This document shows positions 1 to 43,829 of a stretch of DNA of 64,000 nucleotides, piece by piece. The stretch is taken from contig CM049311.1 in the NCBI GenBank assembly GCA_026874595.1, positions 64,397,953-64,461,952 of the forward strand, read 5' to 3'. This stretch comes from Sipunculus nudus. Its lineage: Eukaryota > Annelida > Sipuncula > Golfingiida > Sipunculidae. The position numbers and the translations under genes are program-made. The stretch's first letter is position 1, and the number at the start of each line of letters is the position of its first letter. Under the pieces are notes generated by a model, which was not told the origin of the DNA, ran no database searches, and worked only from the letters and a program-made list of their open reading frames with translations.

Positions 1-1106
1 GTATCCGCCAAAATCAGAGTGGAACAGGTGAAGTGAGGCATAGATTGAGTGGCAAGGGGAAATAGAGTGAAGTGTTGCATATTAGGATGGATGTCTGCAG
101 CAGAAATGTGCATGTAGGTTGTGCCACCCACCACAAAATCCAGAAAGCTGTCCAAGTTGTATACATATGCAAAATTTAAGGCAGACAAGTCAAACCACTA
201 CATGTATATGAGTGATTTTAGCCCATGACAGACAAACAGACGGACGCTGTGCAAAAATGGTTGCAGGTGGCACCACCAGTTTTGCGTATGATAAAACTTT
301 GGCCCAATCGGTTCCTGAGATATGAGCTTGGATGTCTGCAGCGTAAACTAGAATGTAGGTGGCGCCACCTGTCATAAAATCAAGAGAGCTGTCCAGGATG
401 TTTAAACCTGCAAAATTTTAGGCAGATATGTCAAACCACTACCGAGATATGATTGATTTTATCCCACGGCAGACAAACAGACGGATGCTGTGCAAAAATG
501 ACTGCAGGTGGGGCCACCAGTTTTGCCCTTGATAAAGATCTATGTGAGGTCTATACACATGCTAAATTTTGGCCCAATTGGTCAAATGGTTCCCGAGATA
601 TGAGCTTGGTTGTCTGCAGCGTAAACGTGAATGTAAGTGGCGCCACCTGTCATAAAATCAAGAAAGCTTTCCAGGATGTATACGCATGCTGAATTTCAGG
701 TGAATTAGTCAAACCACTGCAGAGATATGAGTGATTTTAACCCAAGGCAGATGAACAGATGGACACTGAAATATGGTTGCAGGTGGCGCCACCATTTTTT
801 GTGTATGTTATAAAGCTATCCGAGGGCTACATTTGTACAAAATGTTTTTCCTGGTCGGTCACACGGTTCCCCTGGATATATGGGTTTATGTGTGGAAACA
901 GACGCACAAATTGACGCTGGTCAGAGAGGAAAGGTCAGAGGTCAACGCCAATTGGTTAGGCACCAGTTCACATGTGACCCGATAATTGGTGTAAGTTTTG
1001 GAAAAATCCGTCCAGTAGTCTCAGAGGAGTTCTCTGGAAACAAACGCGGTGGCGGCGAAACCCGGTCAAAAACATAGCATACACAAAACTTTGTTTTTGC
1101 GGATAC
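1..1106 (+). mobile_element. Tandem-core terminal-hairpin element, copy R1 (5' edge cut by window)
   Basis: The window opens inside an element whose relatives are at 35565-37004 and 42452-43829. It starts with GTATCCGCCAAAATC and ends in a hairpin at 1077-1106 finishing GCGGATAC, so the two ends are inverted copies. The core is about three degenerate units of 240-285 bp. Each unit carries two GGTGGCGCCACC-type palindromes (perfect at 358-369 and 782-793) and a phrase resembling GACAAACAGACGGACGCTG. No coding capacity is seen; ORFs here are shadows of the repeat. The 3' end has a GC-rich GGCGGCG stretch just before the hairpin, shared with the relatives. About 32 bp of the 5' end should lie before position 1, judged from the other copies. 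Confidence 0.8.
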
Positions 1107-1300
1107 AATTACACTAGCTTTTTCCTGTTTTGATACGCGGAAACTTACACAGATTTGACTATGATTACACTTTTTTCAATTAATGTTTATAAACATTACC
1201 ACCCGGCGGACTTCACAATTGTCTGAAGAACACAATTAAATCATAAAAATTCTTTCTACCAAAGAGCAAGGTTAGGGTTGATTTTTGGGTCTTGCAACCC

Positions 1301-1597
1301 GACTACAGATAATCATGCTGAAAAATAGTAAGCAGCTGATTTTGCACACAAAAAAACATTGGTGTCTCCCCGACAAACTGCTGTCTACAGCATTAGGGAG
1401 AAAATTTAAAAGTTGATATACACAATAGGAATACTCATTTTAATAACGAACTACAGATAATCATGCTAAATAAATAGTAAGCAGTTGATTTTGCACACAA
1501 AAATACATTGGTGTCTCCCCGACAAACTGCTATCTACAGCATTAGGGAGAAAATTTAAAAGTGGATATACAAAATAAGAATCCTCATTTTAATAATG
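1301..1597. repeat. Tandem duplication, 148-bp unit x2
   Basis: The phrase CTACAGATAATCATGCT begins at 1303 and again at 1451. The following ~145 bp are nearly identical in both copies, including GGTGTCTCCCCGACAAACTG and GCATTAGGGAGAAAATTTAA. No ORF is conserved between them. This is a simple non-coding duplication downstream of R1. Confidence 0.85.
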
Positions 1598-1680
1598 TTT
1601 CTTTCAATCGTGGACCATTTAAACAGCAAGAACCAGATAAGAATAATTCAAAACAAAAGTATCCATGTTCAGAAACAAGG

Positions 1681-1707
1681 GACCCATGGGTCACGGCGCT
1701 CAGCTGA
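1681..1707 (+). repeat. 5' terminal module of a GCTCAGCTGA-type element
   Basis: A 12-bp perfect palindrome, GACCCATGGGTC, is followed by five bases and then GCTCAGCTGA. The same arrangement with the same 5-base spacer occurs at 35387-35413 (plus) and at 54664-54690 (minus). GCTCAGCTGA is the complement of the 3' hairpin arm seen at 6661-6672, 11303-11315 and 39063-39076, so this is read as the 5' end of that family. What lies directly downstream (1708-2500) is AT-rich with no gene seen. Confidence 0.55.
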
Positions 1708-2510: not shown

Positions 2511-2533
2511 GGGGGGGGGGGGGGGGGGGGGGG
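2511..2533. repeat. Poly-G tract (23 G)
   Basis: An uninterrupted run of 23 G on the plus strand. Other G runs are at 3779-3790, 7675-7692, 7960-7973, 37481-37494 and 41504-41520. C runs are at 24827-24842 and 57770-57781. Exact lengths of such tracts are prone to sequencing error. Confidence 0.9.
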
Positions 2534-2990
2534 TGTTGGGTTATGATCAGACTTACAACCCCTCTGTCTCTCTGTAGATATTTTCTTTAATTATTAAATT
2601 TTATGCTATAGCCATAGAACTATTGTTCACAGTGCCAAGGAGCAAAACCTCAGTGGGATGAAGAAGGGGATGGTGAGAGTTACAGTTTATTCATGAACAT
2701 TAATTATTTAAAACAGGCAGAAAGATGGAGAAACAAAGCAAACCATTTTTTCCCCATTCTACTGAGCCAATAAAAAATTAACAATATTTGCATTTATTCC
2801 TTTTTTTTCATTACATAATTTTTATCCAGGTTTACGAATGTTACTATAAATTTACAGTATAACATACATGTGATTGTGAATATTTCAGTTGATTCACATT
2901 TCTAAATTGCATCAACATTTATAGCTAATGTATCTAGTTTATAGTACCTGTCAACAGAATGGGATGGAGGGAGGAAGGGAGGCAATAAGC

Positions 2991-2992
<2 letters not shown>

Positions 2993-3057: not shown

Positions 3058-3059
<2 letters not shown>

Positions 3060-3939: not shown

Positions 3940-6051
3940 GATCTTTTTAAAGATGTGTCCTGTGACCTTGACCTTTGACCTCATGACCCCAAAATCAATT
4001 CGGGTCTTGCTTTTCCAATGGGACATATGCAAGTCAGGTTTGAAATCTATACATCAATAAAAGCAGGAATTATCATCCAGAAACTCATTTTTGGACCGAT
4101 GGCTCCTGTGACCTTCACCTTTGACCTTGTGACCTCAAAATTGATAGTGTTCTTCCTCTCTTGGCAGGAGAACTATATGTGCAAGATGCAAGATCTGAGA
4201 TGAAATGTTTTCCTGAAAATGCATCCACATCTTTTTAAGGATGTCTCCTGTGACCTTGACCTTTGACCTCATGACCTCAAAATCAATTTTGGTCTTGCTT
4301 TTCCAATGGGACATATACAAGTCAAGTTTGAAATCCATACATCAATAAAAGCAGGAATTATCATCCAGAAACTCATTTTTGGACAGATCGCTCCTGTGAC
4401 CTTCACCTTTTACCTTGTGACCTCAAAATTGATAGTGTTCTTCCACTCTTGGCAGGTGAACTATATGTGCAAGATGAAAGATCTGAGATGAATTGTTTGG
4501 CTGAAAATGCATCAATCTTTTTAAAGAGGTTTCCTGTGACCTTGACCTTTGACCTCATGACCCCAAAATCAATTTGGGTCTTGCTTTTCCAATGGGTCAA
4601 ATACAAGTCAAGTTTGAAATCCATACATCAATAAAAGAAGGAATTATCATCCAGAAACTAATTTTTGGACAGATGGCTACCGGGACCTTCACCTTTGACC
4701 TTGTGACCTCAAAATTGATAGGGTTCTTCCTCTCTTGGCAGGTGAACTATATGTGCAAGATGAAAGATCTGAGATGAAATGTTTGGCTGAAAATGCATCC
4801 ACATCTTTTTAAAGATATGTCCTGTGACCTTGACCTTTGACCTTATGACCCCAAAATCAATTCGGGTCTTGCTTTTCCAATGGGACATATGCAAGTCAGG
4901 TTTGAAATCTATACATCAATAAAGCAGGAATTATCATCCAGAAACTCATTTTTGGACCGATGGCTCCTGTGACCTTCACCTTTGACCTTGTGACCTCAAA
5001 ACTGATAGGGGTCTTCCTCTATTAGCAGATGACTTATATGTGCAAGATAAAAGGTCTGAGATGAAATGTGTGGCTGAAAATGCATCCACAATCTTTTTAA
5101 AGATGTGTCTTGTGACCTTGACCTTTGACCTCATGACCCCAAAATCAATTGGAGTCTTGCTTTTTCAATGGGACATATATAAGTCAAGTTTGAAATCAAT
5201 ACATCAATAAAAGCAGGAATTATCATCCAGAAACTCATTTTTGGACAGATAGCTCCTGTGGCCTTGACCTTTGACCCCAAAATTTATATGGATCATCCAC
5301 TATTGGCAAGTGAGCTATATATTCAAGATGGAAGACCTAGGATGAGAGTTCGGCTTAAAATGCATCCACAGTATCTTTTAAAATGCCAGTCCAGTGACCT
5401 CGACCTTTGACCTAATGACCCTAGAACCTATGGGTTCTTACTTTAGTGGTGAACCATACATAAGTCATGTTTGAAATCCATGTGGCTATCAACACTGGAG
5501 ATATCATAAGAGGTGTGTGATTTTCACCATATATGGCAATATTCAAGGTCAAGGCCACTATCATAGGAAAGGTCATGACCCCAATTTAAATAAACATCAT
5601 CCCATAACCCATACCTATGTATATGCATAATATAAAAGAAATCTGTCCATTAGTTTTTGACTTATAATGCTCACAGTACTGCAAGGTGGCAATTTTGGGG
5701 GTATTAAACGGCACGAAAACAAGTAAAGAATAATAGGTGGCGCCACCAGTTTCTGGAACATGACAACCCTATCCATGATCTTCAATCAACTTGATTTTGG
5801 GATAAATCCATGCAAGATTTCTTGAGATATTAAAGAATTTGTGTGATTTTCCCCAAAATTGGACCTATTCAAGGTCAAGGACACTCTCCTAGTAAATAGG
5901 CGTCGTCCTCTTACCCATATCTATACATATACCAAGTTTGGTAAAGTTCTGTGATTAATATTTTTTGGGTTATCGCGCCAACAAGATTTATATGTGGCGG
6001 CGGCGGGACCGATATGAAAACATAGTATCCCCCGACTTTGTCTGGGGATAC
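3940..6051 (+). mobile_element. Tandem-core element with ~288-bp units carrying DR1 nuclear-receptor motifs
   Basis: About five units of 286-288 bp run from about 3960 to 5400. Each contains TGACCTTGACCTTTGACCT (reverse: AGGTCA A AGGTCA A GGTCA). The perfect DR1 core TGACCTTTGACCT is at 3969-3981, 4257-4269, 4543-4555, 4831-4843 and 5119-5131, with one-mismatch versions at 5265 and 5401. A second degenerate DR1 (TTCACCTTTGACCTT) sits midway through each unit. A GGTGGCGCCACC palindrome is at 5736-5747. The 3' end has a GGCGGCGGCGG stretch and a hairpin at 6025-6051 with arms GTATCCCC and GGGGATAC, followed by AATTA as in copies R1 and R3. The 5' boundary is unclear. Short ORFs repeating about every 288 bp are repeat shadows. 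Confidence 0.8.
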
Positions 6052-6053: not shown

Positions 6054-6673
6054 TTAAATCAACAGTGCTTACAGGGAAAAAAACGTGCTAGTGCCAAAGT
6101 TGGACAAAATTTAAGGTACTGATTTTTTTATTTATACTAATAACTTGAAAAATTTGCAAAATTCAGATTATTTTTGGGTAAACAATTGAATCTTGATTAA
6201 ATAAAGTTATATTCCTGAAAAAAAGTCTCCAGCATCAGCAATTCTCATGTTAAGTGAGCAAATATATTTCCTGATTTTTAAGAAACTGCATTATATTTGG
6301 GCCAATAACTTCAAAATAATACCCAATACTAACCTTATTTTTGGTATGTCCACAGAAAATGTATGGAAAAATAGGAATACTAAATATGATCAAAAACAGA
6401 TCAGTGGTTTTGATATTAGGCAGCTTTGAAGTGTAACAATGGCTTTTTTATGGAAAACGGAGGTTTTTCCTTAATATCTCAAAGGAACGAAGTCCTAATG
6501 ACCCAATTTTGTTGGTATGGTAGGAGATTTTGGGGACATCTATTGGTATGCAGAATTTTGGATTCGTAGGTCCAACGGTTTTAAAACGTGCCCTGTTAAC
6601 GGCCTGATGGCTGGATGGCCGACGGACAAAGGACCATGAGTATAGCTCAGATGACTTATAGTCAGCTGAGCTG
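6054..6673 (+). repeat. Dispersed repeat, TAGCTCAG-hairpin family, copy 1
   Basis: Homologous stretches begin with AAGGTACTGA at 6113, 8257 and 10798 and share phrases such as CTAATAACTT, TTGAATCTT and TTTTTCCTTAATATCTC. This copy ends in a hairpin at 6643-6673 with arms TAGCTCAGATGAC and GTCAGCTGAGCT around a TTATA loop, followed by GAAAAAT. A GACGGACAAAGGACCATGAG phrase directly precedes the hairpin, as in the 11.3 kb and 39 kb members. The ORFs at 6247-6429 and 6448-6708 are not conserved in the other copies. Confidence 0.7.
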
Positions 6674-10780: not shown

Positions 10781-11315
10781 TGAAATGTTGGATATTTAAG
10801 GTACTGACTTTATGTTTATGCTAATAACTTAAAAATTTGGGAAAATTCAGAGCTAATTTTGGTTAAACAATTGAATCTTTATTATTTAAAGTAACATCCC
10901 TGAAAATTCTCCAGCTTCAATAATTTTCATGTTAAGTGAGTAAATATATTTCCTGATTTTTTACAAAGTCTATTATGTTGGGGCCTGTAACTTCAAGACC
11001 TAATTTCTGGTCTGTTCAAAGGATGTATAAAGAGAAATGGTTATATTAAATATGATTAATATCAAATTAGTGGTTTTAACATCATGCAATTTTCAAGTGT
11101 AACAATACGTTTTTAATGCAAATTTGAGGTTTTTCCTTAATATCTCAAAAGAATTTTTGGTATGGAAGGAGATTTATTGGACATCTAACAATATGCAAAA
11201 TTTGGAATTTTAGGTCCAATGGTTTCAAAACTTGCCATGTTAAAGGCCGGACACCAGACGGTCAGATGGACAAAGGACCATGACTTTAGCTAAGATGACT
11301 TATAGTCAGCTGAGC
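10781..11315 (+). repeat. Dispersed repeat, TAGCTCAG-hairpin family, copy 3
   Basis: Starts with AAGGTACTGACTTTATG at 10798 and ends with a hairpin at 11287-11315 (arms TAGCTAAGATGAC and GTCAGCTGAGC around TTATA). The order of phrases matches copy 1, including the GGACAAAGGACCATGA box immediately before the hairpin. The 5' arm has one extra change (TAGCTAAG instead of TAGCTCAG). Confidence 0.7.
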
Positions 11316-29700: not shown

Positions 29701-32700
29701 TGTAGGTCAAACAGTTTAAAAAAGTACCCTGTTATTGACCGGCCGGAAGCTATAGCTAAAGCTCAGGTGACATCGTCAGCTGAGCTAAAAAATTAAATAA
29801 ACCTAAATAAAATTCAAAAATGGCTCAACACTGAAACATTAACATTCAGATTGCAATAAAACATACTTGTCAGTATTGGTTGTAGGTTTCTTCTCTTTGT
29901 CAACTGATGGAGATCCAGGCCTTGGCTTGGTTATGCTTCCAGAGGTGTTCTTCTCTGTCTTCTCCTTCTCACTCTCCCTCTTTTCCTTCTGATTCTTACC
30001 TTGGCTGTGATCATTAGATGCTACCTGCTTTCCTTCAGATTTGGAATCCATTTTATTTTCTTTAGGTTTCTTCAGGGCCTCTAGAGCCTGTCAACACATG
30101 GTCAAAGGTTTAACACACAAGAAACTAAACTTTAGCAGGTATATCTATAAGACTGAATCAGTTAACTTCAAGTAAGATACACAAACTGTTTTCTCAGGAT
30201 CTTATCATGCCAAACAAACCTGGGAGAAAATAATAAAAATATAATTTTATTTTGAATACTGACGCTGGTGTGTTTATCTGTGTTTGTCAGTCAAACGATT
30301 CCTGAAAATTGTACAGGACCAGTTTCTGACTCCACACTCCCATAGCTGTATGATCAGGTTAATCTTCCCAAAGGTTGGATTTTCTTTCAAATTCTTGGAG
30401 GAGTTTGAAAACTATAACCTTGATCTTCATGATCAAATTTGGAAGGCGTCACTGGATGCCTCAGAAGAAGGGGGGACCTGTTTAAGAGGTATGCCCAATG
30501 TCTGATGATCACTTATTTTGTACATAGACAAAGACTGAAAATCAAACTGAAAGCCAATTGATATGGATGAGAACTCTTCATTCATATGATAGTGATGAGC
30601 AACTGTGCTGAATTTCAATCAAATTTAAATGGCTGCATATACTTATCTCATTTAACCTCTGACAATATCATTTTAACCTTTGACAATTATACAGCTCTTG
30701 TAATCAATCCACTTTCAGTATGAACTTTTAAGCATGTTATTATTATTCATCTCCTGTCTTTTAATCAGGCCAAGCATATAAACCAAATACCACTAATCAC
30801 ACATTTTAAAATTTACCCAGTAAACTTCCTAAGGCAAGTGAGAGAGATGCATTGCAATTATAAACAGGAAGATTGAATTTGTATGCTGAATGATACCTAC
30901 CGCACAGTGTTTTTTCCCATTCAGATGGGCTTTTATGTTTTTCACAGCATTTGCGACTCCACAGTTGAATACAATTTTGCACAGCTGTTGATAGGAAGAA
31001 ATACTAGGTAATTAAGATATTTGTCAGGACTGACTAATGCATGTACATGTATTTGGTTACAGGGTTAAATTGTAGATTCAAAGCTTGGAATGACCTCTAC
31101 TCAAATATCTTCAGAAAACAAGTATTTACCTTTGGGTGGCAAACTGACATGATGTACACTAAACATAAAATTAAAGATTGAAAAGCAGAAATTTTTTATA
31201 CAGATCACAAGTTTTAAAAAAAATGTGATACTTCAATAGATGAATGGTATAATAAACTAAAAATGTACTGAAAGGACTTGTATTAAGAACATTCTGCAAC
31301 TTATGGAACTATCTGGTTCAGTAGGTAGTTATGTAAAGAAATTTATATAAAGAAAAATGTATGTGGACATAATAGGATTGTGGTAAATTTTCAGAGGTTG
31401 CCATGTTTGGTATTTTTAAGTGTATACAAAATGAAGATTTTTTTTTATCAAAATCAGAGGGTATTTAATTTTTTAAATCATCCATTAACATTTTGTTTGT
31501 ATGATCTGACAATGTTGCAGGGTCTTTTAAAAAAAAATAACTAGATGTGTCGGAATGACAGGAATGCCCCCGCCTGGGAATAATTAGAAACATTTGTTAA
31601 ATTTTGTGAATTTTTTTAAGTTCAGCAGGTGTCGTATGGTCAAAAGTAGGTCAACAAGGGCAAAATGCAAACTTGATCTGTAACGGGTCATTATCAAGCA
31701 ACACACCAAAAATCAGGCCAGTATCTGCAGGCATTGTGAAAAAAGGTCCATACATGTGCATTTTTCATAAAAATTTCTGTCTTTCATGAAATTTTCTATG
31801 TTCAGGATCTGCCATATGGTCAAAAATAGGTAAACTGGGACGAAACGGGAACTCGATCTGTAAGTGGTCATTATGTGCCCACAGACCAAACATTAGGCCA
31901 GTATCTGTAAACATTGCATTGCGAAACTAGAATATTAGCAAAAGCTGATAATCAGTTATAAATTTAAATTTGAGAGGTATGTACCATGTTTCATAACAAT
32001 CCACCAAATGCTTCCTGAGAAATAATCTCCTAAGTTTTTTCTATACTAAGCTCTGTGACCTTGAAAAGTAGATCGAGATCACCCATCTTTGAACTTGATC
32101 AAGATTTTGTAAATATAATGCAATAGCACTGAAGAAATGAAGTTCCTGTGTTGAATACCTTTGGAGATATCCTGCACACAAGGCCAAAATTGAAAATCCA
32201 ATAAAAATTGAATAATAAATCAGAAATTGCAGATGGCACCACCAAAATTGTGCAGCACGTAGAGACCATCAGTCCCAAAGATCATAGTAAGTTTTGTGAA
32301 AACCCACACAATGGTTCCTGAGATATAAGCTTCTGAGTGTTTTTCTATAATCAGCTCTAAAATTTAGAAAAATGGGTCAAGGTCACCCATCTTCGAACTT
32401 GACCGAGATTTTATCGATATACTTCTTCACTGATGAAATAAAATTCCAACGGTGAATCCTTTTAGAGATATCCCGCTCACAAGGTAAAAGTTAACAGATG
32501 CAGAACGGACTGACACTGGACGGACAGACAGACAGCTTGGGTGACGACAATAGCCCATCAGCCTATGAGCTGAGGGCTAAAAATGGCTGTACATGTACAT
32601 TTGTCATGAAAATTTATATTTTTCATGAAATTTTCTATGTTTAGGAGCCTTGAAACAATCAAAAGTAGGTCAACCGGGACGAAACGCAAACTCGATCTGT

Positions 32701-35700
32701 AACTGGTCATTATATGCCCACACATAAAAAATCAGGGCGATATCTGCAGGCATTGCGAATAAAAGTCCGTACATATGCATTTGTTATGAAAATTTCTATT
32801 TTTCATGAAACTTTCTATGTTCAGGAGCAGTCAAACGGTCAAAAGTAGGTCAACTGGGATAAAACGCAAACTCAATCTGTAACTAGTCATTATCTGCCCA
32901 CACACCAAAAATCAGGCCAATATCTGCAGGCATTGCGAAAAAAAGTCTATACATGTGTATTTGTCATGAAAATTTCTATTTTTTCATGAAATTTTCCAAG
33001 TTAAAGAGCCGTAAAACGGTCAAAAGTAGGTCAACTGGGACGAAACGCGAACTCGATCTGTAACTGGTTATTATCTGCCCACACATAAAAAATCAGGCCA
33101 ATATCTGCAGGCATTGCAAAAAAAAGTCTGTACAACTGTTTGATTTCGGAATGACGGAAGGACAGACATGGGTAAAACTATATGCCCCGGCCACTTTGTG
33201 CCAGGGGCACAAAAAATGTGTTGTAGAGGGTATGAAATCAAACCCTCTGATTTGTATTGATATGAAAAATAAACAACATGTATGTTCCAGGGTTGGGGTC
33301 AAATACAGTGTGCCTAATACAAATACAAATACATTAGCTGGTCCCATTCAAATACAAATACCAGTGACTGAAGATAAATACTAATACAAATACAGAACAT
33401 CAAATACAAATACAATTATAAATACACAAATGTATTGTTTATACAGAAAACTTATTAATTTTCAGCACCATAAATATTCATAATGTCTCAGGGAGAAGTG
33501 AAACACTTGACTTGATGCTGTCTTTTGAGTTGTTCATAAGTAGTAAATGTTTTTTAAATTATGGCAGATATGAATATGTATTTATACATATGTATTTGTA
33601 CAGTATCTCAACAAATACATCAAATATTGAGATCGAATACAAATACAAATATTATCATTTTTCACAAAACAACTACAAATACAAATACATATTTTGATTG
33701 TATTTAAATACATATACAAATACAAATACGTATTTGACCCCAACCCTGGTATGTTATGACTAGATTTCTTCTCCAGCAAGACATGGTGGGAATAAATAAT
33801 TAAATCCCTCTTAGGAACTATTTTTAAATTCTCTTCCTCCAATGGTTTGCCAACCCTGACTAATTTATTGTAAAAAGTGTTTAATTACTGGTCTTTAAAT
33901 GTACATTTCACCAGGATTTTCAGTTAAACCTTTCCTATTTTTCTGAATAAGAAATTGATGTGAAGATGCAAATGATAAGGCAAGGCACAGCATCTACAGG
34001 AAACACAACAAATCCCCCAGCCCCAGGAGAAAATCTTGATTACCTGTATCCTGCTATTTGATAGTTTATTAGATACTTTTTTAACTGGTAGACAGCAATG
34101 AACTAAAATAAGGACAGTGGTCACAGATTAATTTTTCCTTGTAACAGCATAGAGTTTATTTAATTTTACATCACAGTTGTAGGTTTCATTCCCTCCTCGT
34201 ATTTATTATTCCTTATAACAGTAAAATATTAATTCAATCTTACATCACAGTTGTAAATTCCAGCCTTCTTCTTAATGTATTTTGAATCCAGCTTCTTCAA
34301 TTCTTCAGCTTCTGTGAGAGAATTTACAGCAGACAGACACACTATCAGACACATTTTGAACAAGCATCTGTCCAAATGACATTTCCTACACTTTGTCACA
34401 AATGCAATAACATTCTAAATTAAAATTACAGAAAAATATGGAAATGCTCCACAGAATGTATATGGCTTACATCCCAAACCAAAAAGAAACAATCCAGTAA
34501 GATAATTTGTCTGTAGAAAAATGGATACAGTGTAGAACAATCAATCAGTTCATTATAGACAGTAATGTAGGCCTGACTTCAAAAGGAAACCAAACACTTC
34601 CACTGAAATGCTTTTGCCTAAAATATAACAATTAGGTTTGTTCATTACAAGACTATGATTGGATCTACTGTTGGTAATTATGCTTTAATGTTTAAGATCA
34701 CAGTGCAATGATGAGTATTTTTATCTTAAAAAATTATCACTGATTTTCATTTTCAAACAGAGACAGTTATTGAATGTAAGTTATATTTATGACAAGTATG
34801 ATGTAACTGGTCTTCTATGCACTGGATTCTGCTCACTCAGTGGAATCTGTGCTCAACAAATATGATTTTATTTATAATTATTTAATAGATTTCTACACAA
34901 ACTCTACAAAGTTCTTGTTTGCATTACCTGTGTCCCTACTGTTAACTGAACCAGTGGACCTTTGATTGCCTCTTCTGTCATCACCCTGTCTTTGTTGATT
35001 CTGACGCTGGTTGGTTGAACTTGAGCGATTTTGGTTTCTCTGCTCAGCAGCCCTTCCTCTGTCCCTGCCTCTGGGTTCCTGATGTCCCATGTCTCTGTGG
35101 CCGGAGCCCCTCTGTGCTGTAGTTCGATCAGTGGCAGATCTACCTGTGAAATCATTACGAGTACTGCGTTGTGGTCCAGGGCGACTTACACCCCTATGAC
35201 TAGAATCTCTAACTGATAAAGATCGGCTGGAATCCTGTTGACTTGTATTACGGTTCATATTCTGCTGAATGGAATCTCCTAGAAGAGATGCAACGCGCCT
35301 GTCTTGCTGTACTGCTTGTTCGTTTGGTATGCTACTGGCAAACTGAAAAAATTGAGAAATATTGCATAAAAGCTATGATAACAAGTGACCCATGGGTCAT
35401 GACGCTCAGCTGACTGGGAAGAGATTCGCAAAAGGAAATTTTATCATCAGAATGGTAGTATATACCCATTCAACTGAAGCATCAAACAGATTAACCAACA
35501 GACCAAGATTTAGTCTGTATTTATATATCTCAAAAATAGAGAAAAATGTGTAAACTTTTAAAAAATAGAATACAGGTAACCGACAAGTGACTACATGTAT
35601 CTGCCAAAATCGGATAGTGAGGCATGGATTGAGTGGCAAGGGGAAATAGAGTGAGGTATGTTGCATATTAGCATGGATGTCTGCAGCCTAAATGTGTATG

Positions 35701-38700
35701 TAGGTTGTGCAACCTACCACAAATCCAGAAAGCTGTCCAAGTTGTATACACCTGCAAAATTTTAGGCAGATAAGTCAAACCACTACATGTATATGAGCGA
35801 TTTTTGCCCATGGCAGACAAACAGACAAACACTGTGCAAAAATCTTTGCAGGTAACCCCTCCAGTTTTGTGTATGATAAAGACCTATGTGAGATCTAAAC
35901 ACATGCACAATTTTGGCCCAATCCGTCAAATGGTTCCTGAGATATGAGCTTGGATGTGTCCAGCGTTAACTAGAATGTAGGTGGCGCCACCTGTCTAAAA
36001 TCAAGAAAGCTGTCCACGATGTATAAACCTGCAAAATTTTAGGCAGTTATGTCGAACCACTACAGAGAAATGAGTGATTTTAGGCCACGGCAGACTAACA
36101 GACAGACCCTGTGCAAACATTGTTACAGGTGGCGCCACCATTTTTTGTGTATGTTACAGAGCTATCAAAGGGCTACATTTGTATAAATTTTATTTCCTGA
36201 TCGGTCAAACGGTTCCCGAGATATAAGCTTGGATGTCATCAGCGTGAACGTAGGTGGCGCCACCTGTCATAAAATCAAGAAAGCTGTCCACGATGTATAA
36301 ACCTGCAAAATTTTAGGCAGTTATGTCGAACCACTACAGAGAAATGAGTGATTTTAGGCCACGGCAGACTAACAGTCAGACCCTGTGCAAACATTGTTAC
36401 AGGTGGCGCCACCATTTTTTGTGTATGTTACAGAGCTATCAAAGGGCTACATTTGTATAAATTTTATTTCCTGAATGGTCAAACGGTTCCCAAGATATAA
36501 GCTTGGATGTCATCAGCGTGAACGTGAACGTAGGTGGCGCCACCTGTCATAAAATCAAGAAAGCTATCCTGGATGTATACACATGACGAATTTCAGGTGA
36601 ATTAGTCAATTCACTGCAGAGATATGAGTGATTTTAACCCAAGGCAGATGAACAGATGGACACTGTGCAAACATGGTTACAGGTGGCGCCACCATTTTTT
36701 GTGTATGTTATAAGCAATCCAAGGGCTACATTTGTATCAATTTTATTTCCTGATCGGTCAAACGGTTCCAGAGATATGAGGGTTTATGAGTGGAAACAGA
36801 CCCACAAATGGACTCTGGATAAAGAGAAAAGGTCAGAGGTCAATGCAAATTGGTTAGGCACCAGTTCACATGTGACCCGATAGGTGTAAGTTTGGGAAAA
36901 ATCGGTCCATTAGTCTCCCAGGAGCTCTCTGGAAACGAACGCCGCCGCGGCGGAGGAACTCTGTCAAAAACATAGTATCCACAAAACTTCGTTTTGGCGG
37001 ATACAAAAATACAGGTGGCTCCACCAGTCTGCAGAAACTAATAAAAACACTTAATGGTAAATATCCATGCAAAAAATCATGGTGATCTCTGCATTAGTTG
37101 TTCAGATACTTCAGTTTTTGTATCAAATTGTCCATTATTCTGAGGGATACTTCGGAGTCCTATAGCTTGAAGGATATGGGTAACAGAGACCTAATTTCAA
37201 GTTTCCACAGGCACCTTTCATGGGCCTCCTTGCATGACAAGAATGAAGATTCTAGGTCCAGTTGTTGCGATTTGTACCCTGTTGACAGATAACCACATCT
37301 TTAAAGGGCTCAAAAAAAAAAAAAATTCGTAAAAATTTGAAAAAAAAAATAGAGGTGGCACACCCAGTCTGCAGAAACTGATGGAACAGCTCATGATCAA
37401 TATGTACGCCAAAAATCATGACCATCAGTGTTGTAGTTATTGAAATACTGCAGTTTTTGTATCAAATTTTCCATTATTCTGGGGGGGGGGGGGGTATTTT
37501 GGACCCATACAGCTTAAAAAATATGGGTAACAGAGACCTAATTTCAAGTTTCCATGGAGACTTTTCATGGGTCTCCCTGTGTGTCAAGAATGAAGATTCT
37601 TGGTCCAGTTTTTATGATTTGTGCCCTGTTAACAGATGTTCATATCTTTAAAGGTTTCAAAAATACAGAAAAATTTCGTAAAAAAAACCGAACAAATACA
37701 GGTGGTGCCACCAGTCTGCAGAAACTTATGAAACACTCCATGATCAATATCCATGCAAACAATTATGGTTATCTCTGCATTATTTGTTCAGATACTTTAG
37801 CTTTTGTATCAAATTTTCCATTATTCTGAGCTGTACTTTGGAGTGCCATAGCTCAAAGGATATGGGTAACAGAGACCAAATTTCAGGTTTCCATGGAGAC
37901 TTATCATGGGTCTCCCTGTGTGTCAAGAACGAAGATTCTAGGTCCAGTCGTTACGATTTGTATCCTGTTGACAGATAACTACATCCTTAAAGGTCTCAAA
38001 AATGGAGAAAACGATTCGTGAACATTGAAAAATACAGGTGGCGCCACCAGTCTGCACAAACTGATGAAACATCTCATGATCAATAAGTAAGTCGAAAATC
38101 ATAACCATTAGTGATGTAGTTAATGAGATATTGAAGTTTTTGTATGAAATTTTTGACTATTCTGGGGGGTAATTTTGGGCCCCATAGCTCGAAGGATATG
38201 GGTAACAGAGACCTAATTTCTGGTTTTCATGGAGACTTTTCATAGGTCTCTCAGTGTGTCGAAAATGAAGATTCTAGGTCTAGTCGTTACAATTTGTGCC
38301 ACGCTAACAGATGACAGCATCCTCAAAGGTCTCAAAAATAGAGGAAAAAATCGTAAAAAATCAAACAGTACAGGTGGCGCCACCAGTCTGCAGGAACTGA
38401 TCGAACATCTCATGATCAATATGTATGCCAAAAAAGAAGACCATCAGTGATGTAGTTATTGAGATATTGAAGTTTTTGTATGAAATTTTTTACTATTCTG
38501 GGGGGTACTTTGGGGCCCCATAGCTCAAAGGATATGGGTAACAGAGACCTAATTTCTGGTTTCCAAGGAGATTTTTCATGGACCTCTCAGTGTGTCAAGA
38601 ATTAAGATTCTAAGTCCAGTCTTTATGATTGGTGCCTTGTTAACAGATGTTCACATTTTTAAAGGTCTCAAAAATAGAGAAAAAAATTCGTAAAAAATTG

Positions 38701-40373
38701 AAAAATACAGGTGGCGCCACCAGTCTGCAGGAAGTGATGTAACATCTCATGATCAATATGTATGCCAAAAATCATGACCATCAGTCAAGTAGTTAATGAG
38801 ATATTGAAGTTTTTGTATGAAATTTTTGACTTTTCTGGGGGGTACTTTGGGGCCACATAGCTCGAAGGATATGTGGGTAACAGAGACCTAATTTCTGGTT
38901 TCCAAGGAGATTTTTTATGGACCTCTCAGAATCCCAAGTTACAAGGTTCTAGGTCCAGCGGTTACGATTTGTGCCTGGTTAACGGACGGACAGACGGCAC
39001 GACAGACAGACGGACAGACGGACTACGGACAAAGAGTGATCGCTATAGCTCAGATGACTTTCAGTCAGCTGAGCTAAAAATGTAAAACTCACTACCTTCA
39101 AAGAAAATGCAACCTATCCATAACTATCAACTCTCTTATCATGTAGTTGATTCACAAAGGACTTTACTTAAATGTAAATACATTCAATTGGACAGCATGA
39201 TTTTTTAATGCTTAACTACAGTTGGTTATGACATCGGGCACATAATTAAATGTAGGATATTTTTAGACAAATGATCAACATATATCTTAGAATAAAAGTT
39301 AATATTATTTTTCAAACTAAAGTAATTCTAAGGAGTAGTCAGGATCTGAAAAGAATACTTTCAATTTTCATTTATTTAAATTTGCAGGATAAATTGGTTT
39401 GACATGCTGAGAGTAAAGAACATACCCTAGCATATTCCATCTCCATAAGAGACCGCTGATCTTGGGTTGAATGTCCATGCTGAACTTGCATTCTGGTCTG
39501 CCCCTGAAGCATGCCCCTGGCAGAGACGTCCATGCTTCTAGCACCTGTCTGGTGTAATGGCTGATGACGAGGAATCTCTTCATCAGATGTGCATGGTGAG
39601 CCCATATACCTCCTTCCTAGTTTCATATGCGCCTTGTTGCTTGGTGTAGAACTTGAAAACGGAGGATCCAGTGCAGGGCCAATTCCTGGAATCTCCTCCG
39701 TAAACCTGCTGGAAAAGCTGCTCATTATACCTTTCTCTTCAGGCCTGGATGTATAACTCAAACTCGCAGACTGGTCACTCCGGTTGAGGGCTTGTCCAAA
39801 CATGCTTGAACTTCCACCTCCTCTGTATGCAACATCATCAGTTGGTCGACTTGGGCTGTAGGAATCCCGTCTTGATCTACTGTTACTGGGTTGTCCAAGG
39901 AGGGATGGTTTATTCAGGGCCTGGCTGTCTCTCTCATAAAGTCTCATACCTTGCCTGTCCATATAATCCTGACTAGTAAACGATTCTTTCCTGGAACTGC
40001 CATAGTCCACTAGACCCTGCTGCTCTTCTCTCAGACCTGAGCGATCTTCAAAGCTGCTTCCATATCTGCTGACAGACTGACCCGCTGTTGTCCTGGAAAC
40101 ACCTCTATCACCCAACATGTAACGATCCTGGAGCGATTGGCGGCTACTCTGACTCACATCAAACCCCTGCTGATTAGTTGACCTCTGTCCTACTTTGCTG
40201 TATTGGGAATCCCAGTTGCTGGTCTGTTCCATGGTTCTGCCAGCCATGTTCATATTGATGAGACTTGGTATGCTGGAAGATCTACTGACTGAGCTGGTGC
40301 TGGAGCGCACATTTTCAAATTTGCTGCTGTAGCCCAGACCTGTGTCCAGGACTTGTCCATAGTCCCTGAACAT
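12841..40373 (-). CDS. Eight-exon gene for a 1355-residue matrin/U1-like C2H2 zinc-finger protein
   Basis: Coding exons, in transcript order: 40373-39426, 35342-34928, 34311-34244, 30984-30901, 30087-29867, 29004-28917, 18635-18285 and 14733-12841. Every junction is GT-AG, and phases 0,1,0,0,2,0,0 agree on both sides of each intron, giving 4068 nt including the stop. The protein has an Ser/Arg/Gln-rich N-terminal region (1-454), a Lys-rich helix leading into a zinc finger with C476, C479, H497 and H503, a charged Lys/Glu/Ser segment (506-725), a Gly/Met/Asn-rich repeat region (about 830-1145) and a predicted helical, finally basic C-terminus. I do not recognise the orthologue. Finger type and composition suggest a nuclear nucleic-acid-binding protein, by inference. 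The start is the first ATG in the first exon seen; the frame stays open upstream to the acceptor at 40381, so an earlier exon could add residues. The 10.2-kb and smaller introns are loaded with transposon-derived repeats. Confidence 0.85.
14734..18284 (-). other. Last intron of the zinc-finger gene
   Basis: 3.55 kb between exon 7 and exon 8. AT-rich, only short non-conserved ORFs, no obvious repeat array, RNA gene or transposon terminus seen. Confidence 0.6.
18285..18635 (-). CDS. Zinc-finger gene, coding exon 7 (residues 609-725)
   Basis: 351 nt, phase 0 on both sides, acceptor TGCTTGTAG and donor AAG|GTTGGT. It encodes a short predicted helical module (LALATALLDVLGAADEDTIS followed by SLLNKLKK) and then a Lys/Ser/Glu-rich disordered tail. 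The helical module is the most structured part outside the finger and the C-terminus. Confidence 0.85.
19340..19810. repeat. Degenerate tandem repeat with CCACCAGTCTTGTGTATGA phrases
   Basis: About four diverged units of 120-135 bp, each with a degenerate GGTGGCGCCACC-type core (for example near 19373, 19498, 19621 and 19747) followed by a CTTGTGTATGA-like phrase and a GAAGATGTATGGACATG-like phrase. It sits in the 10.2-kb intron and looks like an old relative of the palindrome-bearing arrays. Confidence 0.55.
20560..21560. repeat. Degenerate palindrome-bearing repeat array in intron
   Basis: Related stretches centred near 20580, 20940, 21085 and 21370 share GTTGATGCAGGTGGCGCC, TTTGCATAAAATTTGGTGAT and AGATAGTATGGGTAAAAAT. 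A perfect GGTGGCGCCACC is at 21085-21096. Spacing is irregular, so the array is old or rearranged. Short minus-strand ORFs here are not conserved between units. Confidence 0.6.
21650..24370. other. Intronic interval, no gene or clear repeat recognised
   Basis: AT-rich intron sequence between the 21-kb palindrome array and the degenerate 34-bp repeats. Only short unsupported ORFs. Confidence 0.5.
24370..24690. repeat. Outlying degenerate copies of the 34-bp minisatellite
   Basis: Phrases such as GAGTCCATAGGTCATGTTGT, GTCTATGGGTATGTTGCTG and GTCTGTTGTTGACCCGAAC match the unit of the array at 26140-28700, spaced irregularly. A run of 16 C at 24827-24842 follows. Confidence 0.6.
26140..28700. 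repeat. 34-bp minisatellite array, about 75 units, intronic
   Basis: The consensus unit joins GAGGAGTCCATGGGTTTGTT and GTTTGACCCAACAT. The left part (26.1-27.1 kb) is more diverged, with TCTATGGGTCTGTTG variants; the right part (27.2-28.6 kb) is more uniform. Higher-order repeats are visible: a block starting with TTGTTTGATCAAACATAG recurs about 403 bp apart (27140 and 27543), and a block with GACCCAACAGGAGGAGT recurs 304 bp apart (27822 and 28126). Since 34 is not a multiple of 3, three units make one 34-residue shadow peptide repeat, which explains the 'GSNNKPMDSSCWVKQQTH' ORFs on the minus strand; these are not genes. Confidence 0.95.
28917..29004 (-). CDS. Zinc-finger gene, coding exon 6 (residues 579-608)
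   Basis: 88 nt between TGTTTCAG and CTCAG|GTCAGG. The first base completes the Lys codon from exon 5. It encodes TPEKPAEKAADAQEKMDTGT and a charged end, continuing the Lys/Glu-rich disordered region. It lies only about 200 bp from the edge of the 34-bp minisatellite in the next intron. Confidence 0.85.
29480..29786 (+). repeat. Short TAGCTCAG-hairpin family fragment
   Basis: A GACAGATGGACAGACAGACA phrase at about 29597 leads to GGACCTCATTGTATGTTGAA and to a terminal hairpin at 29760-29786 with arms AGCTCAGGTGAC and GTCAGCTGAGCT around ATC, followed by AAAAAATT. The hairpin and flanking phrase order match copies at 6.6, 11.3 and 39.0 kb. Confidence 0.65.
29867..30087 (-). CDS. Zinc-finger gene, coding exon 5 (residues 506-578)
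   Basis: The acceptor TTGACAG is followed by GCTCTAGAGGCC in phase 0. The donor is GACAA|GTATGT, leaving two bases. It encodes ALEALKKPKENK directly after the finger, then a Lys/Glu/Ser-rich charged segment with no domain recognised. Likely disordered. Confidence 0.85.
30901..30984 (-). CDS. Zinc-finger gene, coding exon 4 (residues 478-505, second half of finger)
   Basis: 84 nt, phase 0 on both sides, between a CAACAG acceptor and a GTAGGT donor. It encodes LCKIVFNCGVANAVKNIKAH followed by LNGKKHCA. With C476 from exon 3 this gives C-x2-C-x17-H-x5-H. The H-x5-H ending with NGKKH is typical of matrin/U1-like fingers, but their usual Cys-to-His spacing is about 11-13, so this finger has a longer loop and an extra Cys (C485). 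Confidence 0.85.
31541..33210 (+). mobile_element. Tandem-core terminal-hairpin element, ~181-bp unit, with a nested insertion
   Basis: Starts CTAGATGTGTCGGAATGACA after an A-rich flank. Five units of about 180 bp begin near 31622, 31803, 32640, 32820 and 33001 and share CGGTCAAAAGTAGGTCAACT, GATCTGTAACTGGTCATTAT and ATCTGCAGGCATTGCGAAAA. The element ends with TTTCGGAATGACGGAAGGAC, which repeats its 5' phrase, and a hairpin at 33183-33209 with arms TGCCCC and GGGGCA, then CAAAAAATG. The spacing jump of 837 bp between units 2 and 3 is one unit plus a ~655-bp insertion (31927-32580). Non-coding. Confidence 0.8.
31927..32580 (+). mobile_element. Element nested inside the 181-bp array
   Basis: Inserted in the A-run after CATTGCGA of a 181-bp unit. 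The 5' end is CTAGAATATTAGC. The 3' end is a hairpin at 32551-32579 with arms TAGCCCATCAGC and GCTGAGGGCTA, then AAAA. The core holds two related half-units (AGATATCC.GC.CACAAGG; CACCCATCTT.GAACTTGA; CTGAGA.ATAA.CT) and a GATGGCACCACC degenerate palindrome at 32233. The CGGACAGACAGACAG phrase precedes the hairpin. Because the uninterrupted unit exists in four other copies, both edges can be placed to within a few A residues, and no target duplication beyond A's is seen. Confidence 0.75.
33288..33748. mobile_element. hAT-like MITE with AATACAAATAC-rich interior
   Basis: The left end CAGGGTTGGGGTCAAATAC is the exact inverse of the right end GTATTTGACCCCAACCCTG, a perfect 19-bp terminal inverted repeat. 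Direct flanks are GTATGTTC (33280-33287) and GTATGTTA (33749-33756), a 7-of-8 match to an 8-bp target duplication. CAGGG-type termini and an 8-bp duplication are the hallmarks of the hAT superfamily. The interior has no transposase; both halves are rich in ACAAAT/AATACA repeats. The high terminal and flank identity suggests fairly recent insertion. Confidence 0.85.
34131..34262. repeat. Short tandem duplication spanning the exon 3 donor
   Basis: TTACATCACAGTTGTA occurs at 34166 and again at 34240, with similar upstream DNA (TTCCTT.TAACAG..TA) in both. The right copy contains the end of coding exon 3 and its GTAA donor; the left copy lies in the following intron and preserves the TACAACTGTGAT|GTAA donor context on the minus strand. 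Confidence 0.75.
34244..34311 (-). CDS. Zinc-finger gene, coding exon 3 (residues 455-477, first half of finger)
   Basis: 68 nt between CTCTCACAG and GTAAGATTG. The incoming base from exon 2 completes a Glu codon. It encodes a Glu/Lys helix (AEELKKLDSKYIKKK) and GIYNCD, the first zinc-ligand cysteine (C476). Only one of the three frames is free of stops, and it is the one that matches the neighbours. The exon end and donor have a 74-bp-offset duplicate in the following intron. Confidence 0.85.
34928..35342 (-). CDS. Zinc-finger gene, coding exon 2 (residues 317-454)
   Basis: The acceptor TTTTTTCAG is followed by TTTGCCAGTAGC, in phase 0 with exon 1. The donor is CACAG|GTAATG at 34927, leaving one base for the next codon. 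It begins with a predicted helix (FASSIPNEQAVQQDRRVASL) and continues into an Arg/Gly/Ser/Gln-rich stretch with many RG, RD and RS pairs, typical of RNA-associated low-complexity regions. Reading on past the donor gives a stop within seven codons. Confidence 0.85.
35387..35414 (+). repeat. 5' terminal module (palindrome plus GCTCAGCTGAC)
   Basis: GACCCATGGGTC, five bases, then GCTCAGCTGAC. Its complementary arm GTCAGCTGAGCTA is found at 39064-39076, so 35387-39076 may be one composite element into which copy R2 inserted, although the interior cannot prove this. Confidence 0.5.
35565..37004 (+). mobile_element. Tandem-core terminal-hairpin element, copy R2
   Basis: Starts (A)TAGAATACAGGTA, then GTATCTGCCAAAATC at 35597. 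The core is about four units of 273-280 bp, with perfect GGTGGCGCCACC at 35980, 36128, 36253, 36402, 36533 and 36682. The unit at about 36004-36264 is nearly identical to the next one, pointing to recent amplification. The 3' end has GCCGCCGCGGCGG and a hairpin at 36975-37004: arms GTATCC/GGATAC and CAAAAC/GTTTTG around TTC with asymmetric single and double bases between the two stems. Non-coding. Confidence 0.85.
37010..39083 (+). repeat. Six-unit ~337-bp tandem array ending in TAGCTCAG hairpin
   Basis: Units start with a GGTGGCGCCACCAGTCTGCA-type phrase at 37014, 37354, 37701, 38037, 38373 and 38710, the last three being perfect palindromes. Shared phrases include GATATGGGTAACAGAGACCT and GAAGATTCTAGGTCCAGT. 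A run of 14 G is at 37481. The tail is a (GACA/GACG)n-rich stretch, then GGACAAAGAGTGATCGC and a hairpin at 39046-39076 with arms TAGCTCAGATGAC and GTCAGCTGAGCTA around TTTCA, then AAAAATG. It abuts copy R2 directly. ORFs of 60-90 residues recur with the unit and are not genes. Confidence 0.85.
39426..40373 (-). CDS. Zinc-finger gene, coding exon 1 (residues 1-316)
   Basis: The acceptor (TTTATTTCAG) ends at 40382, so the exon begins at 40381; the ATG is at 40373-40371 and starts MFRDYGQVLD. The donor is GTATG at 39425. The segment is rich in Ser, Arg, Gln and Tyr, without a known domain, and probably disordered. A Pro-rich 'GIGPALDPPF' patch and a Met/Gln/Arg-rich end precede the junction. 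Eight residues further upstream are open in frame but have no start support. Confidence 0.85.
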
Positions 40374-40381
40374 GATGAATC

Positions 40382-42451
40382 CTGAAATAAAGTAAATGAA
40401 ACCATACAGGACAAAGCAATATTTCAAATGCTGCCCTTTTAACAGTTCACAAAATTTATAGTTTTAATAAAGAGTTCAAATTCAATGTACAAAGTTTTAT
40501 TGATATATTATCAAAAATAAAATCAAACACAAAAAAGTCTGTCTTCAATTGCAGCACATATTTTACAGGAAATTCTATGTAGTCAATGTCGACATTCTTA
40601 GACAAAAAAAGAGTTTCTTGTACAGCCTAAAAGGTGCAGAAGTTGATATGTTTGTTATTACTTTAGCTTAAAAATATGAAGGCTTCTGACTCTCCAGCCC
40701 TTCCTCGTGCCTGACATTGTAATGAGGTTGATGAGCTTGACACCCACGATGGAAGAATACTGAGATATTCCCCCTGTACATATATTCAACAGACAGTTAT
40801 CTGCTATTAAATGGCAAGTTGTTTTTCATACTTTGGCTAAGCACACGGTAATTTGGGAAAAAAGGGTATGTTATCATCTCCTAATAATCACTGAATAAAA
40901 TCAAATCAAACCAGGGAAAGCAGTTGTCACATGTTTAAAATTCCAGTACAAAACAATCCCACACTTTCGGTGGTCTGATTACAAATCTGTGCTCAGTGCA
41001 CAGGCTGGTGTAACCTTGCCATACCAAGCATCGTTTTCAAGAAACAATGTCTTGGATGACTGCAGACATGTGAATTTTTAATGTTGCTTGAATTTGCTTC
41101 ATGTATTTTTAAGCTGAAATTTATATGTAAAGAATATTTGGCATGAGTATAGAATCTGGCCTACTTTACAATCTCGTCAAGACAAGTCCAAACTGGCCGA
41201 AACCATATTAAAATGTTACATTAGCCATTGACTCTATTCAGAAACTAAATCTGAAGTATATTCACATTTTCTCTGTAATATCTGGACCTATATACTAGCT
41301 ACATCTAGTCATCTCAATTTTAACAAACTTACTTCAAGTGCTGTGTATGTCTTGCTGTCTTGTGTCCCCTTGTATTCTGCACAAACCATGCTGACGTCAT
41401 ACACAATGCCCTCATTTAATTTATTTATTTTGTGTTGCAGTACACATTCTTATTATAATTTGTATTTTGCTTTACATTCCTATTTTTGACCAACCCCAGT
41501 GGTGGGGGGGGGGGGGGGGGCTGGGGGGGAACGGGTATTTTTGGGGCAGTAGCCCCCAAAACCGATACATGTTAATTCACACATGAGAATCCATCCCTGC
41601 AGTGCAGTGACCTCTAGTGGACATTTTGTAATTATTCTGTCACAACTGTTTGAATAGAGTCAAATATCCACTTGTCTGCAACTTGCCTTCATGGCAAAGT
41701 TGGATACTCAGACGGCTTTTGAGCGTGCAGTCAGTGGTTGAATCCAGTTCTGCCATCACATCTTTGCATGTTGTTCTCAATGTACTAATAATTCCTGTAT
41801 TTATCTCACATGTGTATTCAAGATTGCAAACTTCACACACAAATGAGGTCACAGAATAAGTATCGCAGAATAAGCAGTCAATCTGAGAAACTTTAATTCT
41901 TTCATCCTTCTCTAATGACGACTGGATTCTAATTTATGTGAATTAGTCTAATTATAAGGCTCTGAAAATTCTTATTATTCTTAATATATTATAGCAAAAA
42001 AAAAAAAACATGCAGACAAATGCCCTGGACTGACAGATAGTTATGCACTGGTTTCATGTCTGATCAAGAACTTGTTGCTGAAACCACACCTGTGATACTT
42101 GTTGATGTATTGTAAAATTTTTATTAATACTAATATGTGTATACTCCATTCCACCACCCCTGTTCAGTGTTCAATGATATAATTTTGAAACAATGCACTA
42201 AAGGTTACCTTTATTTACCCTTGAAGCAAATCAGATAAATGTTGTGATAACCTGACAGCAAAATAATAGTCTTCTGTGTTTTGATTCCATATGATTAATT
42301 CAGAAAGAAATATGACTGAACGGATGTATGGTCTTGCGACATATCAGTGATTACCTGTGAAACACCAGTGATTAGGGTACAGGTGACAAAAAGAAATGAA
42401 ACAACCTTTTAAATTCAAATATAAAACAGGAAACTGGTGTCAGTTGATAAA
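40382..42451. other. Upstream interval of the zinc-finger gene, nothing recognised
   Basis: 5' intron or flank of the zinc-finger gene. It contains a 17-G run at 41504-41520 followed by further G clusters, and an 11-12 A run near 41997. No conserved ORF or element terminus seen. Confidence 0.5.
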
Positions 42452-43829
42452 CTAGAATACGGGTAGTCGACAAGCAACTACCTGTATCCGCCGAACTCAG
42501 AGTGGGACAGGTGAAGTGAGGCATGGATTGAGTAATAAGGGGAGACAGAGTTAGGCATGGATGTCTGCAGCCGAAATGTGTATGTAATTTGTGCCACCGA
42601 CAAAAGTCAAACCACTGCCGGGATATGAGTAATTTTATCCAATGGCAGACAAACAGACAGACTTTGTGCAAAAATGGTTGCTGGTAGTGCCACCAGTTTT
42701 GCATATGATAAAGAGCTATGTGAGATCTATTCACATGCAAAATTTTGGCCCAATAGGCCAGACTATTCCCCGGATATGAGCTTGGATGTTTGCAGCGTAA
42801 ATGTGAATGTAGGTGGCGCCACCTGTCATAAAATCAAGAAAGCTATCCAAGATGTATAAACCTGCAATATTTTAGGCAGATAAGTCAAACCACTGCCGAG
42901 ATGAGTGATTTTATCCCATGGCAGACAAACAGACAGACACTGTGCAAAATTGGTTGCAGGTGGCGCCACCACTTTTGCTTATGAAAAAGAGCTATGTGAG
43001 ATCTTTACACATGCAAAATTTTGGCCCAATCGGTCAAACGATTCCTTAGATATAAGCCTGGATGTCTGCAGCGTAACATAAATGTTGGTGGTGCCACCTG
43101 TCATACAATCGAGAAAGCAGTCCAGGGTGTATAAACCTGCAAAATTTTAGGCAGATAAGTAAAACCAGTGCAGAGATTAGTTATTTTATCACACGGCAGA
43201 AAAACAGGTGGACGCTGTGCAAAAATGGATGCAGTTGGCACCACCAGTTTTGTGTATGATAAAGAGCTATGTGAGATCTATACACGTGCAAAATTTTGGC
43301 CCAATCGGTCAAACGGTTCCCTAGATATGAGCTTGGATTTCTGCAGCTGAACGTGAATGTAGGTGCCGCCAACTGTCATAAAATCAAGAAAGCTGTCCAG
43401 GATGTATACACATGCAAAATTTCAGGTGGATAAGTCCGACCAATGCAGAGATATGAGTGATTTTATCCCAAGGCAGATGAACAGATGGATGCTGTGCAAA
43501 AATGGTTGCAGGTGGCACCACCTTTTTTTATGTGTGTTAAAAGCTATCCAAGGGCTACATTTATGCAATTTTTTTTCCGGATCGGTCAAATGGTTCCCGA
43601 GATATGTGGGTTAATGTGTCAAAACAGACACACAGATGGACGCACTGGAGAGGAAAGGTCAGAGGTCAAAACAAAATCGGGACGCAGCAGTTCACATGTG
43701 ACCTGAACATATCCTGGGTTTCGTAAAATTCCGCCCAGCGGTCACGGAGGAGTTCTCCGTACACCTACGCTGTGGCGGCGGTGGTGGGCTGAAAACTTGG
43801 TATCCGCAAAACTCTGTTTTGGTGGATAC
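42452..43829 (+). mobile_element. Tandem-core terminal-hairpin element, copy R3
   Basis: Starts CTAGAATACGGGTAGTCGAC after AAA; GTATCCGCCGAAC follows at 42484, the same 31-bp spacing as in R2. The core units carry palindromes at 42812-42823 and 42959-42970 (perfect) and several one-mismatch versions to 43515. The 3' end has GTGGCGGCGGTGG and a hairpin at 43800-43829 with arms GTATCC/GGATAC and CAAAAC/GTTTTG around TCT, followed by AATTAT. Overall similarity to R1 and R2 is clear along the whole length. Confidence 0.85.

Follow-up and report, generated by a model that had tools for sequence, protein, structure and literature searches.

A 64,000-nucleotide stretch of the Sipunculus nudus genome (assembly GCA_026874595.1, contig CM049311.1, positions 64,397,953 to 64,461,952; hereafter the window) carries ten short hairpins at the ends of repeat families that differ in sequence. 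These hairpins very probably mark the 5' termini of non-autonomous Helentrons of the HINE (DINE-1-like) type and of fragments of such elements, presumably handled by the Rep protein of a matching Helentron, for which a fixed defect in the hairpin may have a role. The original prediction, made from the letters of the window, named Helentron-type elements as the nearest analogue, and the anatomy of the ends, the existence of Rep-encoding partners and insertion into T-runs support this assignment. The elements are of a known kind (HINE/Helentron), fall into several families, two of which have partners, and show one structural regularity, at position 9 of the hairpin stem, beyond the anatomy described in the accounts compared.

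All ten hairpins are present, two of them degenerate: the hairpin at 1077-1106 has a mutated outer arm (-4.5 kcal/mol), and in that at 11287-11315 the fold is broken. On the minus strand each reads as a T-run or A/T-rich flank, then the hairpin, which consists of a subterminal inverted repeat (subTIR) and an inverted repeat (IR) complementary to it, and then the body of the element. All ten lie on the minus strand in the window; genome-wide, family A is strand-balanced (560 vs. 582 rows). The far end, traced for families A, B and D in the window and for A2 in genomic copies, has a subTIR in inverted orientation, followed by a palindrome of its own and, in most cases, by CTAG or CTTG ahead of TT; the 5' and 3' subTIRs are mutually inverted in all four families. 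The hairpins had been taken for 3' ends; given this far end, and Rep frames that run away from the hairpin in the partners described below, they are 5' ends, and what was read as a second, 5' copy of the arm is the 3' subTIR. A GTCY microsatellite was seen in B, C and D.

The 3' end of family A reads ..GGCGGATAC (GGCAGATAC in one copy), followed by a palindrome of the type GTAGTCGCTTGTCGACTAC and ..CTAG/TT (a slash marks the element boundary). It occurs at 42452-42495, at 35566-35609, where the final G is lost, and directly left of window position 1. The first belongs to a complete element (42452-43829; hairpin 43800-43829, 3' subTIR 42484-42495, palindrome 42462-42482) and the second to an element inside a B repeat array (35566-37004; hairpin 36975-37004, 3' subTIR 35597-35609, palindrome 35575-35594). 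The third belongs to the element with the degenerate hairpin at 1077-1106, whose body runs to position 1 with the 3' subTIR at 1-13, its palindrome and CTAG/TT lying just outside the window (L033). The B element around the nested A (35382-39076) has its hairpin at 39046-39076, 336-bp repeats, and a 3' end at 35382-35415 made of the subTIR TCAGCTGAGC (35404-35415), the palindrome TGACCCATGGGTCA (35386-35399) and CTTG/TT. A second B 3' end, at 1676-1707, has the same subTIR and CTTG/TT with one palindrome base changed (TGACCCATGGGTCC). Further B hairpins lie at 6643-6673, in a subfamily in which CATGGTCC follows, and at 11287-11315 (the degenerate one, same subfamily), and a B-like hairpin with a 4-bp inner stem lies at 29760-29786. 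The D element (33209-31541) has a hairpin altered from the consensus (33183-33209), 180-bp tandem repeats (32579-33134) and a 3' end at 31541-31574 (GGCGGGGGCAT, palindrome TGTCATTCCGACA, CTAG/TT). Inside its array sits a C element (31927-32579; hairpin 32551-32579), which ends in CTAG before TTT and in which no 3' subTIR was recognised.

The A2 hairpin of the window (GTATCCCC) lies at 6025-6051, and its 3' end was not identified within the window; in the genomic copy L049 this end reads GTCTGGGGATAC, palindrome TGGCACCTGCGGTGCCA, CTAG/TT. In another copy (L048) no 3' subTIR was seen in the 3 kb read. On contig C1 (1407723-1418682) five A2 elements stand head to tail at a spacing of ~2.6-2.8 kb; in the two units read there (L047) the 3' subTIR is followed by several hundred bases up to the next 5' end, and no palindrome is evident past that subTIR. 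Palindromes of B-type ends also differ among lineages that share the B subTIR: TGGCCCATGGGCCA (L056, L062, L066, L067, L073) and TGACCCATGGGTCA (L058 and the C17 element described below) are distinguished by a paired change.

The specific hairpin families lie far beyond chance genome-wide, and the generic shape does not clearly do so. The A2 pattern GTATCCCC..GGGGATAC was found at 2413 places against 5 in the control, and the 5'-end patterns of A, B and D gave 1142, 9076 and 4853 rows against 9, 4 and 1, the B and D counts being inflated by duplicates (gaps, T-runs) and the controls ranging overall from 0 to 9. A generic hairpin descriptor gave 25 hits in the window, including only seven of the ten hairpins, against 15, 9, 10, 19 and 7 in five first-order Markov controls; it fails to set these hairpins apart from chance (25 vs. 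7-19) and was discarded as evidence. It had also been argued that paired changes on both arms imply selection for the fold. Such changes are clear between families and weak within family A, where compensated double changes number 7 against a shuffle mean of 2.1 (as high in 4 of 2000 shuffles, and in 45 of 2000 when only distinct rows are counted) and the proportion of paired cells is unremarkable (106 and 456 of 2000 shuffles as high). Covariation across genomic copies, whose lack would have told against the idea, is thus weakly present within family A; the excess is modest, and shared descent could also account for it.

The geometry that had been proposed, an outer stem, a single defect at one place, an inner stem and a small loop, is confirmed in a sharper form. 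The 5' ends of A, A2, B and D have an 8-bp stem, one defect at position 9, an inner stem of 3-5 bp and a 3-nt loop, the consensus sequences being GTATCCGC-C-AAAAC-RAA-GTTTT-GCGGATAC for A, GTATCCCC-A-GAC-AAA-GTC-G-GGGGATAC for A2, TAGCTCAG-C-TGACT-GAA-AGTCA-T-CTGAGCTA for B and TATGCCCC-C-GCCAC-AAA-GTGGC-C-GGGGCATA for D. The C hairpin and that at 29760-29786 have one defect each, with other lengths. Among the sampled rows the defect is kept in 88 of 94 for A, in 65 of 84 for B (9 unscored because an arm has changed and 3 because the left letter is unreadable, 5 with a bulge from an extra base and 2 with a different mismatch; perfect pairing in none of the 72 scored rows) and in 54 of 69 for D (6 unscored, 8 with other mismatches). 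The 3' subTIR is without the defect: the letter that pairs at position 9 stands there in 72 of 80 rows for A, 68 of 69 for B and 44 of 51 for D, and likewise in the A2 ends of L049 and of the two L047 units. With DNA parameters, the duplex of the 5' and 3' subTIRs is 2.9-4.6 kcal/mol more stable than that of the 5' subTIR and the IR.

An autonomous Rep element with the same termini, which the idea of mobilisation in trans called for, was found for B and for D, and the dependence of the non-autonomous copies on such mobilisation is supported. The Rep profile PF14214 gave 143 match rows across the genome. The B Helentron occupies C17:35640361-35625479 on the minus strand (14,883 bp) and has copies on C1, C5 and C10; its open frame of 2342 codons, the last 1897 of which were searched, matches Helitron_like_N (96 bits), PIF1 (82 bits) and DUF6570. 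At the 5' side homology begins at TTTTT/AGCTCAGCTGAC, with unrelated sequence before it, in all three copies read far enough (C17, C1 and C5). The next hairpin upstream in C17 was considered as the 5' end and rejected, since homology went on beyond it; the true end lies one repeat block further out. At the 3' side all four copies are 98% alike up to CTTG/TT and differ beyond. The copies are ~82% alike in the first repeat block of C17 and ~96-97% alike further in and between C1 and C5, and the palindrome region of those on C10 and C1 departs by single bases. Letter for letter, the C1 and C5 copies have the window hairpin of 39046-39076, and the C17 hairpin has a C.A in place of the C.T defect. 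The window B element (39080-37005) aligns to the 5' region of the C17 Helentron in pieces of 64-82% identity, the longest covering 1299 bases at 76%, and its 336-bp repeats occur beside the hairpin inside the autonomous element.

The D Helentron (C5:20300943-20313327, plus strand, 12.4 kb) has a second copy on C3. The C5 element opens on the D hairpin in its exact form (L070:1602) and closes with the 3' terminus of the family (L069). The two copies part on the 5' side at TTTT/TATGCCCC, where the C3 homology begins at TTTTTATGCCCC after a different flank, and on the 3' side they share 98.7% identity across the 673 bases that lead to CACATCTAG/TTT and diverge beyond. A Rep match and DUF6570 were identified, the middle of the element, including the helicase region, lying outside the sequence read. 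In both the B and the D Helentron the Rep lies downstream of the hairpin in the sense orientation. The proteins are 22-36% identical by piece, with 36% over 91 amino acids for the C-terminal piece of D, and as far as their sequences show, the B and D termini belong to two Helentron lineages. The 181-bp repeat array of the D Helentron matches the D repeats of the window (79-90% by piece) and stands, like the 336-bp array of B, beside the hairpin of the autonomous element. Because they have this position in the matching autonomous elements, the tandem repeats look inherited, and the proposal that they are interchangeable cargo is not supported.

Several observations weigh against this account of the ends and their partners. 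The B endonuclease match reaches 20.5 bits, under the Pfam cut-off of 24.5, and a PDB search with that piece gave no convincing relative. The direction of the elements rests on the open reading frames of the partners, and one published Helentron, according to the part of the account available to us, has its frame reversed (PMC4067079). No partner for A, A2 or C was found among 27 three-prime windows, six large Helentron stretches and three further B copies, set against the 143 Rep match rows of the genome. As for the defect, 123 perfectly paired B hairpins occur genome-wide and one perfectly paired D hairpin is found among the 69 sampled D rows, so the defect is not indispensable for the persistence of a copy; moreover, the sampled end rows are the first ~100 listed for each pattern, nearly all on contigs C1 and C2.

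The anatomy suggests how such ends could work. The Rep nuclease of the matching Helentron would recognise the 5' hairpin and subTIR on single-stranded DNA, and the element would be copied by rolling circle, with a stop at the 3' palindrome and insertion into a T-run. The position-9 defect, absent from the 3' subTIR, could make the local hairpin the weaker partner, and the 5' subTIR might then change over to pairing with the 3' subTIR, so that the two ends meet; alternatively, the defect may be the feature that Rep reads. It is conceivable, although we would not call it probable, that the Helentron 5' end is a two-state DNA switch, in which weak pairing with the defect-bearing IR gives way to a defect-free duplex with the 3' subTIR during rolling-circle transposition. 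Four families, including two that distinct Helentron lineages serve, follow the position-9 rule, which may extend to Helentrons in general. A DINE-1 5' sequence seems to show the same geometry; a text search for it found no paper, and it is taken as a lead only.

The defect could also be an unselected accident, inherited from one ancestral mismatched hairpin that later diversified, and this is a serious if rather doubtful explanation. The families may share ancestry, the first six bases of A and A2 being identical, and the perfectly paired B copies persist. However, the stems differ in most pairs between families and the defects themselves differ (bulged C, A.G, C.T, C.C), yet their position is the same; each is undone in the 3' subTIR, and the proteins of B and D have the low identity given above.

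One shared machinery acting in trans for all families was part of the original prediction. Mobilisation of all of them by a single Helentron would fit the common fold geometry and the similar loops (RAA or AAA) of A, A2, B and D, but it is improbable, as a Helentron with matching termini exists for B and another for D, in two lineages, and A, A2 and C have no partner so far. Twenty-seven further Rep loci showed B-type 3' ends in nine windows (one degenerate; at L075 perhaps passenger copies only), D-type ends in two, and A- or A2-type ends in none. The C17 frame, with an A hairpin upstream, was considered as a partner for A and rejected: a whole A element is fixed in the 5' noncoding region of the B Helentron and has been amplified with its copies (C17, C10, C5, two on C1, and C8 on the 5' side only). 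It is nested there rather than forming the end of the C17 element, because the C10, C5 and C1 copies share both of its sides and matches to free A elements stop ~878 bases into the query. A further Helentron lineage on C11, C13 and C8 is long, has kilobases of common noncoding sequence and, on C11, a protein with OTU and endonuclease domains (L009-L012, L019-L020, L036-L040); no ends were recognised for it. Within the N-terminal coding part of Helentron frames, or next to it, tandem repeats of 63, 69 or 138 bp were also observed (L009/L010, L013/L014, L015/L016, L017/L018, L070).

The orientation first proposed, with the hairpin as a 3'-end terminator, is very unlikely. The hairpin does stand beside an A-run on the plus strand, and Helitrons usually terminate at a hairpin close to the 3' end, as is also stated in the available text of one account (PMC2374699); against this, the Rep frame in B and D runs away from the hairpin, and it is the opposite end that bears a subTIR and a separate palindrome.

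Empty and filled sites, whose comparison was suggested together with the original prediction, differ in T number alone, without a fixed-length target duplication, and ordinary terminal inverted repeats are not seen either. When joined, the flanks of the C1 copy of the B Helentron match a dispersed repeat, with 55 matches listed after 40 of 3255 candidates had been scored: of these, 38 extend across the junction, 15 are short pieces and two are simply the flanks. Eight paralogous empty sites were read at the junction, six with five Ts, one with four and one with an interrupted run; in the filled site six Ts precede the element and two follow it, without any further duplication. For the C5 copy, the joined flanks gave partial repeat matches only, some ending 9-24 bases past the junction. 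In the window, the C element interrupts a T-run in a D repeat unit without target duplication (..CCATTTTT/TAGCCC .. ATTCTAG/TTTCGC), the uninterrupted units reading CTTTTTTTTGC or CTTTTTTTCGC at this point. That these are elements resembling miniature inverted-repeat transposable elements (MITEs), moved by a DDE transposase and with the hairpin as an ordinary terminal inverted repeat, is hardly credible. Inverted repeats do lie near both ends and the similar-looking bivalve element Pearl was, in the available part of one report, first called a MITE (PMC7492417), but the 3' repeat is subterminal with a palindrome after it, no duplication exceeds the difference in T number, and elements with the same ends encode Rep and a PIF1 helicase.

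DINE-1 and HINE elements are non-autonomous Helentrons described, in the portions of the literature available to us, from Drosophila and the Pacific oyster (Thomas 2014, PMC4067079; Yang and Barbash 2008, PMC2374699; Vojvoda Zeljko 2020, PMC7492417). The elements studied here resemble HINE/DINE-1 (INE-1), as characterised in the accessible text, in their subTIRs, the partial IR by the 5' subTIR, the GTCY microsatellite, the central tandem repeats, the 3' palindrome and the T-rich target without duplication (PMC4067079, PMC2374699). They differ in that the IR gives rise to an inner stem, set off by a single defect whose place is fixed, whereas in those passages it is called "partial and/or interrupted" with no fixed position named. 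Compensatory changes were noted for the 3' stem-loop in earlier Helentron/HINE accounts, as far as their available parts go, and the position-9 rule does not appear in the parts compared (PMC4067079, PMC2374699, PMC7492417), no literature search having been aimed at the rule itself. The Cg_HINE elements of the Pacific oyster (Vojvoda Zeljko 2020, PMC7492417) likewise comprise several families with unrelated satellite-like repeats, a microsatellite and a 3' palindrome; their subTIR measures 11-12 bp and their IR 7-12 bp in the text available. No autonomous partner could be related to them according to the same text, whereas here the partners of two families share both ends and repeat families with the non-autonomous copies. 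The available part of an oyster genome paper reports no autonomous ones (PMC7992393), and at the level of titles and the beginnings of abstracts no report of autonomous partners for repeat-carrying mollusc HINEs was found.

In their Rep and helicase domains, ends common with non-autonomous copies and T-rich target, the partners resemble autonomous Helentrons (Rep-helicase-endonuclease); they are distinguished by the tandem array beside the 5' hairpin and, in the B copies, by the whole A element in the 5' noncoding region. The 5' TC and A/T insertion of canonical Helitrons (Helitron1) are not seen, as the ends read TTTT/AGCTCA or TTTT/TATGCC in a T-run target. The canonical 3' CTRR fits the CTAG ends of A, A2, C and D and does not fit the CTTG of the window and C17-family B ends; some B-type ends elsewhere have CTAG. 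The repeat families of the window are explained as Helentrons, and autonomous elements with ends matching repeat-carrying HINEs, lacking in the oyster study, are supplied. As these autonomous elements themselves carry the repeats, the origin of satellite-like arrays becomes testable, and the hairpin defect that is undone at the far end offers a concrete and cheap handle on how a Helentron Rep tells the 5' from the 3' end.

Two other repeats were observed in the window. About 22 copies of a 51-bp repeat (17 codons) at 62238-63371 resemble, in untranslated form, the coding sequence of a proline-rich repeat protein. A long tandem array with a unit of ~34 bp occupies 26372-28653 and, by eye, is unlike the hairpin elements.

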